64,000 bases of DNA from Sideroxydans sp. (GTDB lineage: Bacteria; Pseudomonadota; Gammaproteobacteria; Burkholderiales; Gallionellaceae): positions 124,001 to 188,000 of the forward strand of contig JAQTUV010000002.1 in NCBI GenBank assembly GCA_028707175.1, given 5' to 3'. The position numbers and the translations under genes were made by a program. This document shows positions 9,235 through 21,086 of the stretch, piece by piece. The notes under the pieces are model-generated. The model worked only from the letters and a program-made list of their open reading frames with translations, made no database searches and was not told the DNA's origin. Positions within the stretch are counted from its first letter, which is position 1. Every line of letters begins with the position of its first letter.

Positions 9235-10607
<1,373 letters not shown>

Positions 10608-10608
10608 A

Positions 10609-11988
10609 TTATTTTTTCGCTTTTGCATCCAACTCACGCAGATGCGCTAGCTTCTCTGAAATCTTGCCTTCCAAGCCACGCTCGGTAGGTTCATAAAAAC
10701 TCACGGCTGGCATGCCATCGGGGAAGTAGTTCTCACCCGCCGCATAGCCGCCCTCTTCGTTGTGCGCATAACGGTAATCCTTGCCGTAATCGAGTTGTTT
10801 CATCAGCTTGGTCGGCGCATTGCGCAAGTGCAGCGGCACTTCACGCGAACCATCCTGAGCGACAAAAGCGCGGGCGGCATTATACGCGACGTATCCCGCG
10901 TTCGACTTGGCCGCGACCGCCATGTACAACACGGCTTGTGCCAGCGCCAATTCACCCTCGGGCGAACCGAGACGCTCGTAGGTCTGCGCCGCGTCGTTGC
11001 ACAACTGGATGGCACGGGGATCGGCGAGACCGATGTCTTCCCATGCCATACGCACGATGCGTCGCGCCAGATAACGCGGATCAGCTCCACCATCCAACAT
11101 GCGCACCAACCAATACAGCGCAGCATCTGGATTGGAACCGCGCACTGATTTATGTAGCGCGGAGATCTGGTCGTAGAACGCTTCGCCGCCCTTGTCGAAG
11201 CGGCGCATCTTTTGCGCCAGCGTGGCATCGAGGAACTTCGTATCAATCTTGTTGAGTTTGGCCGCGCTCGCCGCCGTTTGTAATTGCTCCAACACATTGA
11301 GCAAACGCCGCGCATCACCATCGGCATAACCGATGATGCGCTCCTTTGCTTCATCGCTAAATTGCAAACCTTCCGCCTGTAGGTCGGGCTTCAGCCCGAC
11401 AGCTTCGCTATGCCTCCCATCTTGTTGTCGGGCTGAAGCCCGACCTACAAATGACAATTGAGCACGCGACAGCAATTGCCCCATCTCTTCTTCGGACAAC
11501 GACTGCAACACATACACCTGCGCGCGCGACAACAACGCGTTGTTCAACTCGAAGGAAGGGTTCTCGGTGGTCGCACCGATGAAGGTGACCAAGCCTTGTT
11601 CGACGTAGGGCAGGAAAGCATCTTGCTGTGACTTGTTGAAACGATGCACCTCGTCCACGAACAGGATGGTGTGACGACCATTCTGTTGCAGCGTGAGTTC
11701 GGCTTGGGCGATTGCTTCACGGATGTCCTTCACACCGGACAACACCGCCGACAGCAGCACGAACTCGGCATCGAAAGCCGATGCCATCAAACGCGCCAGC
11801 GTGGTCTTGCCCACACCGGGCGGCCCCCACAAGATCATGGAGTGCAACTTGCCCGATTGGAACGCCAGACGTAACGGCTTGCCTTCACCCAGCAGATGCG
11901 ACTGCCCGATGACTTCGTCGATATGCTGCGGACGCAGACGTTCGGCGAGGGGAGCAGCAGGTTGGTGGGGTGCGAACAGATCGGACAT
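10609..11988 (-). CDS. rarA: Replication-associated recombination protein A (AAA+ ATPase) with an in-frame palindromic-repeat insertion
   Basis: 459 residues. It is an AAA+ ATPase of the RarA/MgsA/WRNIP1 family, acting at stalled replication forks with DNA polymerase and SSB. Walker A GPPGVGKTT is at 55-63 and Walker B ILFVDEVHRF at 108-117. The sensor-1 region GATTENPSFE begins near 138 and the lid/C-terminal domain has YADGDARRLLNVLE. Between RAQLS and EGLQFSDEA, residues 181-204 are encoded by a palindromic repeat and read VGRASARQ...GLKPDLQ. This stretch is not part of the family. It lies in the lid region just after the arginine-finger segment and keeps the frame. Otherwise the protein looks intact. 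The gene lies one base after lolA's stop. Confidence 0.94.
   Translation of the reverse strand: MSDLFAPHQPAAPLAERLRPQHIDEVIGQSHLLGEGKPLRLAFQSGKLHSMILWGPPGVGKTTLARLMASAFDAEFVLLSAVLSGVKDIREAIAQAELTLQQNGRHTILFVDEVHRFNKSQQDAFLPYVEQGLVTFIGATTENPSFELNNALLSRAQVYVLQSLSEEEMGQLLSRAQLSFVGRASARQQDGRHSEAVGLKPDLQAEGLQFSDEAKERIIGYADGDARRLLNVLEQLQTAASAAKLNKIDTKFLDATLAQKMRRFDKGGEAFYDQISALHKSVRGSNPDAALYWLVRMLDGGADPRYLARRIVRMAWEDIGLADPRAIQLCNDAAQTYERLGSPEGELALAQAVLYMAVAAKSNAGYVAYNAARAFVAQDGSREVPLHLRNAPTKLMKQLDYGKDYRYAHNEEGGYAAGENYFPDGMPAVSFYEPTERGLEGKISEKLAHLRELDAKAKK
11378..11449. repeat. Palindromic element inserted in frame within rarA (72 nt)
   Basis: Outer arms TGTAGGTCGGGCTTCAGCCC and GGGCTGAAGCCCGACCTACA are perfect inverted complements around a 32-base centre. 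The length of 72 preserves the reading frame, and the element encodes residues 181-204 of RarA. The arms are nearly identical to those of the bioH copy and are read in the same frame in both genes. Confidence 0.95.
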
Positions 11989-20302: not shown

Positions 20303-21086
20303 TCAAAAACTTTCTCACTTGCGCGACAAATAATTCGGGGTGCGATAAGAACGGGGTATGCGCTGCACCTTCGATCTCGACGACTTTTGCATTCGGGATC
20401 ACCTGTGCTAGGTAATAAGACGCCTCAGGTGGAGTGAGTTTGTCGCGCTGCCCCGCAATCAACAAAGTGGGCTGCTGTATTTGCCCTATTTCATTACGTT
20501 GATCCACATCGCGCAATATTTCCAAACCGCCACGCAAGGCATCCATATCCGGTTCGCCACGGCTGAAGAGTTGCTCACGTAACTTGCTCAATAATTCGCG
20601 CTCGTTCTCGCTGCCACGCAACTGCAAAGAAATAAAACGACGTAGCGTCGTTGCGTGATTCTGCTCCAACTCTGCGGCGAACTTCTTCAGCACCTCAGCA
20701 GGTAATCCAAACAACCAATCGTCTCGCTCAGTAAAGCAGGGGGTCGTTGTCACTAAAACCAGACTCTTCACTTTGGCTGGCTCACGCACTGCCCAGCGCA
20801 TCGCCACTTGCCCACCCAATGACCAACCACATACGTTTACGGGTGATGCAAAAGTTGCGGATAGTTCGCCAACAATAGCATCCATCTGTAGGTCGGGCTT
20901 CAGCCCGTCAAAGCGTTGTCGGGCTGAAGCCCGACCTACACTTAGACCAAATCCAGGCAAATCCACGCAATGCACTTGATGCGTCTGCGCCAAGCGTTGA
21001 GCCACCTCACTCCACACCCCACCGTGCATTCCCCATCCATGAATCAATACCAGCGGGGCTCCACTTCCTATCGTCTCAATGTGCAT
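20295..21086 (-). CDS. bioH: Pimeloyl-[acyl-carrier protein] methyl ester esterase with an in-frame palindromic-repeat insertion
   Basis: 263 residues, alpha/beta-hydrolase fold. Landmarks are HGWGMHGGVW near 16-25, the nucleophile elbow GWSLGG with Ser89, catalytic Asp in AGQRDKLTPP and His in GAAHTPFLSHP. These match BioH, which ends pimelate elongation by cleaving the methyl ester. Residues 50-67 (VGRASARQ...GLKPDLQ) come from a palindromic repeat inserted after LPGFGLS, where E. coli BioH has a short loop. The catalytic triad is intact, so the enzyme is probably functional. It is preceded by a 65-base spacer containing a degenerate repeat. Confidence 0.93.
   Translation of the reverse strand: MHIETIGSGAPLVLIHGWGMHGGVWSEVAQRLAQTHQVHCVDLPGFGLSVGRASARQRFDGLKPDLQMDAIVGELSATFASPVNVCGWSLGGQVAMRWAVREPAKVKSLVLVTTTPCFTERDDWLFGLPAEVLKKFAAELEQNHATTLRRFISLQLRGSENERELLSKLREQLFSRGEPDMDALRGGLEILRDVDQRNEIGQIQQPTLLIAGQRDKLTPPEASYYLAQVIPNAKVVEIEGAAHTPFLSHPELFVAQVRKFLNE
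20887..20940. repeat. Palindromic element inserted in frame within bioH (54 nt)
   Basis: Arms TGTAGGTCGGGCTTCAGCCC and GGGCTGAAGCCCGACCTACA are perfect inverted complements around a 14-base centre. The length of 54 preserves the reading frame and encodes BioH residues 50-67. The arms equal those of the rarA copy, and both genes read them in the same frame. Confidence 0.95.

Follow-up and report, generated by a model that had tools for sequence, protein, structure and literature searches.

An in-frame palindromic REP doublet in bioH of a Sideroxydans sp. and the different repeats that fill the same BioH loop across the Gallionellaceae

The bioH gene of a Sideroxydans sp. is interrupted, without a stop or a frameshift, by a GTAG-type REP doublet, and the gene has kept its conserved residues and remains under purifying selection. 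In other Gallionellaceae the same loop of BioH is filled by other repeats. We consider it very probable that a mobile hairpin of the RAYT-type, filtered by selection, has survived here in a permissive loop. The features under study lie in a window of 64,000 nucleotides (positions 124,001 to 188,000 of contig JAQTUV010000002.1, assembly GCA_028707175.1) and are collected in Table 1.

Table 1. Location of bioH, rarA and REP elements in the window
Feature	Positions	Strand	Basis or remark
bioH, pimeloyl-ACP methyl ester esterase, 263 aa	20295..21086	-	TIGR01738, AF2 fold
GTAG-type REP doublet (REPIN/BIME-like), in frame in bioH	20887..20940	-	two inverted 22-nt halves, 8-nt spacer, outer T and A
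Half-REP 1, as bioH reads: GTA GGT CGG GCT TCA GCC CGA C	20918..20939	-	0 mismatches
Half-REP 2, inverted	20888..20909	+	one mismatch
Second REP doublet, in frame in rarA, 24 codons, 70 nt	11379..11448	-	half-REP matches, ORF reading
rarA/mgsA, AAA+ ATPase, 459 aa	10609..11988	-	MgsA_C, AAA_assoc_2, AAA matches
Third REP doublet, between ORFs, outside any gene	10552..10606	.	half-REP matches

A preliminary description had observed a palindromic repeat in frame inside bioH, and the window sequence confirms this. The palindrome proper occupies 52 nt (20888-20939), and a T at 20887 and an A at 20940 bring it to 54 nt; the 54-nt copy with identical 20-base arms described earlier is thus right if both outer bases are included. 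A single base differs between the two 22-nt halves, GTAGGTCGGGCTTCAGCCCGAC, and their outer 20 bases are identical. The peptide added to BioH, VGRASARQRFDGLKPDLQ, stands between LPGFGLS and MDAIVGEL, as had been stated. GTAG is present at one end of each of the two imperfect palindromes, as in a GTAG-type REP, and the segment forms a strong predicted hairpin (RNAfold z -12.1). At up to three mismatches, the 22-mer half-REP has six matches in the window against 0 expected from 100 shuffles. Comparison with a relative lacking the insert (G105) shows that about seven native linker residues are missing beside the REP, so the event is closer to a replacement than to a pure insertion. When the 6-nt flanks of 54 doublets of the genome were inspected by eye, no target-site duplication, by which a MITE would be recognised, stood out, and the outer T...A simply extends the palindrome.

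The segment is one member of a repeat family of which the Sideroxydans genome (G000; 2.89 Mb in 19 contigs, 99.94% complete) contains about 200 half-copies. The best named relatives of its BioH among contigs are Gallionellaceae, the top three being Sideroxydans MAGs. At up to three mismatches the half-REP has 223 matches in G000 versus 2 for the reversed pattern, and at two mismatches 193; since some of the 223 may overlap on both strands, their number is best given as about 200. Forty-two strict doublets, i.e., inverted units separated by a short spacer, are present. At loci L086, L087, L094 and L079 REP doublets form tandem arrays with a spacing of about 76-180 bp.

REPINs and RAYTs are the subject of PMC3116915 and PMC2817692. 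In general, REPINs are linked to a RAYT and regarded as mainly extragenic, and they resemble the bioH doublet in consisting of two inverted REPs with a short spacer. G000 differs from these systems in having no detectable RAYT: the cognate gene expected for a GTAG-type REP was found neither with the PF01797 profile nor with a relative's RAYT protein as the query. The genome thereby holds an orphan REP population of about 200 halves. PF01797 matches are present in 20 of the 34 genomes of the genus. Of eight RAYT loci in relatives, seven (L287-L293; query family NF047646) carry GTAGGTCGGGTTA-type repeats on their flanks, and the eighth (L294) is flanked by another GTAG repeat. The GTAGGTCGGGTTA-type repeats share the start of the stem with the REP of G000 and have a different loop. 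Since no RAYT was detected in G000 and the RAYT loci of relatives are flanked by like-stemmed repeats, the mover is assigned by kinship: the doublet, a non-autonomous GTAG-type REP, would have been carried here by a transposase of the RAYT type (HUH/Y1), now undetectable in this genome. According to passages of Di Nocera et al. (2013; PMC3733652), REPtrons can be absent owing to deletion, and the missing RAYT therefore weakens the claim about the mover more than the identity of the REP.

The interrupted protein is a BioH by its family model (TIGR01738, 233.3 bits versus a cut-off of 206.95), by its fold (the AF2 model matches the BioH structures 4nmw, 4etw and 1m33 with TM of ~0.9) and by Ser89, Asp215 and His243, which we take to be catalytic and which are invariant across 53 aligned BioH. 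The surrounding ORFs, named by motifs, are presumably other bio genes. The mean pLDDT of the model is 94.2; the lowest block, residues 51-60 in the insert, has 67, and all other blocks have at least 88. In the AF2 model of a relative's BioH with a GWVERSDTH-type insert the values are 63 and 57 in the loop and at least 87 elsewhere. The predictions thus agree with the earlier proposal that the insertion lies within a loop. In the model, helix B starts at P64, within the REP-coded PDLQ, and the doublet would be transcribed and translated as 18 extra residues just before and into this helix.

Over 233 codons (the first 19 were not compared), the dN/dS of bioH was 0.147 to G105, 0.116 to G069 and 0.068 to G099, with dS saturated in the last comparison, and 0.086 in a control pair; bioH is under purifying selection. 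The ratios to the two nearest relatives are somewhat above that of the control pair, as might be seen if bioH were decaying and the insert marked a pseudogene. We hold such decay to be very improbable, given the full-length ORF with its TIGR01738 score above the cut-off, the three invariant residues and the bio ORFs nearby (recognised from motifs). The gene is thus not broken by the insert, as the fold also indicates. Removal of the segment from the mRNA or the protein, as with an intron or an intein, is extremely improbable: the strong hairpin is the one feature that would fit it, while the segment is open in frame and self-splicing elements are far longer than 54 nt. By analogy, the palindromic insert of a Rickettsia guanylate kinase, described in passages of PMC2229807 as translated in an active enzyme with changed substrate affinity, would also argue against removal.

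In-gene copies elsewhere in G000 were sought in 40 stretches, around the 42 strict doublets, bioH and four single sites, which hold 54 doublets at up to two mismatches per half. Fifteen of these lie inside 14 ORFs taken as genes and named by Pfam matches or, where these left the name undecided, by our own reading: mutS, an HI0933-like flavoprotein, rarA, recG, an FtsX-like permease, a CusB-like adaptor (between two domains), a hypothetical ORF without a Pfam match (L078), folC, purL, mutL, a UvrD/RecB-like helicase (two copies), a PD-(D/E)XK protein, a nitrogenase-like protein (near the C-terminus) and bioH. By the assigned names, six of the 14 ORFs are DNA repair or recombination genes, a bias that PMC3733652 describes for other host bacteria. 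The mutS (L063), mutL (L084) and recB-like (L088) loci carry further repeat peptides (PSPAGGRGAGGEG...RLRERA, QAGEGLGVRV and RPQAGEGAGVRA); these are of a second repeat type, so the same repair genes appear to be open to invasion by different families of repeats.

All 15 in-gene doublets have a length of 1 mod 3, which becomes 3n with the outer T and A, compared to 19 of the 39 other doublets (Fisher 3.1e-4; 14 of the 39 are 0 and 6 are 2 mod 3), the 39 not being independent, since some are tandem copies. All 15 also read GTA GGT CGG and are stop-free as read. These results support the selection after insertion that the preliminary description had suggested; most other in-gene insertions would have been purged by it.

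The copies in bioH and rarA do share one frame, GTA GGT CGG, as had been noted, and this agreement had been offered as a sign of constraint on the ground that three frames exist in principle. For these two copies the argument fails: one alternative frame opens with TAG and in both copies the third runs into a spacer stop, so that the shared frame is forced and their agreement is no evidence by itself. We therefore rejected the coincidence as evidence. What survives of the argument is a bias among the informative copies of the genome: the third frame is stop-free in 12 of the 15 in-gene doublets and is used in 0 of the 12 (p 2.4e-4 at even odds). A purely permissive filter does not predict this one-frame bias, which counts against such a filter.

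Several copies depart from the usual frame. In G000, three doublets near ORF starts were excluded from the 15: one in a cytochrome c ORF (L061) is in the usual frame, and those in a FliP ORF (L062) and in L095 (no Pfam scan) are in the other frame and are probably upstream of the true start. Five more ORFs with the other frame (L070, L075, L080, L090 and L093) have no Pfam match. The rule is broken in RarA of G111 and G097, whose first arm uses the other frame and gives CGSGFNPT. Replication in G045 and G145 covered 40 loci with 41 doublets, and ten ORFs were scanned with Pfam, leaving out open ORFs on L307, L314 and L318 and the second ORFs of L304, L306 and L316. Three clear in-gene copies were found, all in the usual frame (an AAA/cyclase-like protein, between domains; a biotin ligase; EarP). 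Pfam gave no match for six of the scanned ORFs, of which L324 and L325 use the other frame, and an acyltransferase ORF was in the other frame with the REP ahead of the domain. In-gene doublets seem much rarer in G045 and G145 than in G000. The biotin ligase ORF of G045 (L316), which carries the in-frame GTAG REP at residues 200-214, adds another biotin-related gene to those interrupted in the family.

BioH was found in 142 of 150 genomes of the family; 109 loci were fetched and 103 parsed, the linker being taken from the conserved Ser to GWSLGG and called native at up to 28 residues. The comparison of orthologues with and without an insertion, proposed as a check in the preliminary description, yielded 33 native and 70 longer linkers. 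By genus, the linker is expanded in 44 of 48 parsed genomes in g12, 10 of 28 in g1 and 5 of 6 in g15. Sorted by hand-written peptide patterns, the fillings are a GTAG REP of the same family as in G000 (9), GWVERSDTH (6), PSPxGRG (10), GKxxGS (27) and others (18). Genome-wide repeat status was tested for the GTAG REP, GWVERSDTH, CCCTCTCCC...GGGAGAGGG and the RarA repeat, and not for the 27 GKxxGS and 18 other rows; at least three different genome-wide repeats fill the BioH loop, two GTAG-tagged and one not. The GTAG-tagged GWVERSDTH repeat was matched in 83 of 150 genomes. The CCCTCTCCC...GGGAGAGGG palindrome, which has no GTAG tag, has a match in 117 of 150, and the BioH insert itself is among its listed places in G027 and G011.

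The mean hairpin z is -3.8 for longer linkers versus -0.17 for native ones, and values below -2 are seen in 44 of 70 versus 3 of 33, with 26 of the 70 expanded linkers showing no clear hairpin, a point against the mobile-hairpin reading. Relative to a native reference of 252 residues, positions 45-65 take 81 of the 84 gap events spanning 5 aa or more (64 of 102 BioH proteins) and three fall outside; two g8 linkers are long through reference position 68, outside the loop. Among the named loci L123-L173, whose titles point mostly to Sulfuricella, Methylophilaceae and other groups, nearly all printed linkers have 23-30 residues. The longest among those printed, 63 residues with a GWVERSDTH-like repeat, belongs to a Betaproteobacteria MAG, DeMMO1_2 (L172). 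The BioH loop would thus appear to be a permissive landing place, filled by different repeat families in relatives, and the insertions would survive because it tolerates very different in-frame fillings.

For two of the repeats, occupation of the loop goes with their abundance in the genome. The REP of G000 is found in the BioH loop of 8 of 12 REP-rich genomes versus 1 of 91 others (Fisher 1.8e-8), REP-rich meaning at least 25 matches, a cut picked after the counts were seen; a rank test without a cut gives 2e-6. In the other four REP-rich genomes the linker is also expanded, with a different filling. The GWVERSDTH repeat has 8 to 96 matches in each of the five genomes of that type versus a median of 2 in the others (p 0.001). 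The nearest BioH rows, G105, G069, G099 and G081, have a native linker (branch supports 100 and 97), and judged by these four rows the REP in the bioH of G000 is a gain. With the linker left out of the BioH tree, the nine rows that carry the REP require 9 changes, at least 6 of them forced by well supported branches. The copy of G000 is of a CTTCAG sub-type and differs from the remaining eight, which are ATTCAT-like; two or more origins are therefore likely, and a single insertion may be common to several g12 rows with the same spacer residues.

All nine BioH copies of this REP start directly after the same Ser codon; native linkers have AGY here without exception (33 of 33). Such a boundary, exact in all nine, is more precise than loop tolerance needs and tells against it. 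It suits instead a targeted insertion, in which the elements would recognise bioH DNA (the AGY Ser codon, here AGT or AGC, and the following bases) and prefer the site; the number of tree changes fits as well, and since the GWVERSDTH repeat is also GTAG-tagged, related transposases could have moved both. Yet the same loop is occupied by CCCTCTCCC...GGGAGAGGG, without GTAG ends, GWVERSDTH-type copies begin a few codons past the Ser, and the rarA site has no obvious motif in common with the bioH site by eye. Furthermore, eight of the nine copies are of one sub-type, some with common spacer residues, so that shared descent or transfer accounts for some of the coincidence. We therefore judge targeting unlikely: the preference suggested earlier would fit the shared boundary and is undercut by reuse of the site, and since different repeats, one without GTAG ends, reuse it, the permissive loop is favoured over one transposase's target.

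A selected benefit, with the hairpin or peptide improving BioH through the helix start, ACP contact or an effect on mRNA or translation, appears quite unlikely. It could account for the single frame of the 12 informative copies (if both frames were otherwise equally good), for the predicted start of helix B in the REP-coded residues and for the prevalence of expansion in g12, but the peptides at the site vary widely among genomes, the four nearest rows lack the insert, and dN/dS in the REP lineage is not lower. Taken as a whole, the first interpretation keeps its loop, its intact and constrained gene and its selection after insertion, and loses its frame argument from two copies. Under the permissive loop that we prefer, the frame bias, the Ser boundary and the missing native residues leave room, at low probability, for a selected or targeted reading.

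The RarA linker shows a pattern that resembles that of BioH, with one linker and several repeats. Thirty loci, the best-scoring of 150 genomes and thus a biased sample, were inspected by eye: 11 linkers are native, 6 hold a GTAG REP doublet (by peptide), 1 a partial one, 11 a VRPELVEG-type repeat or its remnant and 1 something else. The VRPELVEG repeat has no GTAG tag and a match in 133 of 150 genomes, and its listed places in G002 and G034 are within rarA. At loci L258-L274 it enters the RarA linker as CCGTTCG..CTGAGC.TGTCGAA, read as RPELVEG/STSSARTG. In G000 RarA has as many native residues as relatives without an insert, so this insertion looks clean. A tentative and rather doubtful extension is that in both landing loops palindromic repeats swap over evolution as interchangeable linkers under positive or stabilising selection, more than just debris that is tolerated, in one frame because a PDL-ending peptide would be usable as a helix start.

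The element itself is of a known kind, since intragenic GTAG REPs have been published: passages of PMC3733652 describe GTAG-tagged palindrome doublets inside ORFs, many of DNA repair or recombination, and different REPs near the same recB site in two Xanthomonas species, and propose loops or linkers as tolerant places. Sideroxydans and Gallionella are absent from the main text of that paper. Relative to these passages, the site shared by several families over many genomes and the comparison of frames used with frames open are new here. A literature search, mostly outside subscription journals and limited to the best-ranked matches, returned no report of in-gene repeats in BioH or Gallionellaceae; nor did the literature searched show a single loop occupied by several repeat families within one bacterial family, or a comparison of the frames used with those open.

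Judging from passages of PMC2229807 and PMC10969869, the Rickettsia RPE are, like the BioH REP, palindromic and in frame inside conserved genes; they differ in length (~105-150 bp) and host, and are likened to it by mode of action, not as members of the family. The REP-like RPE-4 and RPE-6 are placed by the relevant passage of PMC3733652 among CGTC repeats, not GTAG. Enterobacterial RU/ERIC in-gene elements, as described in part of PMC2759123, are also small mobile repeats that add peptides to genes, but have 103-168 bp and other hosts, and the likeness is one of description, not of sequence.

A shared peptide frame can stem from stop codons alone and should be tested on informative copies. 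If our reading is right, the BioH loop would be a natural replicated experiment on mobile DNA becoming protein, with many related genomes, several repeat families, one site and native relatives as controls, and it would make testable the old question of whether palindromes lying inside genes can serve as parts of a protein or are just neutral debris.
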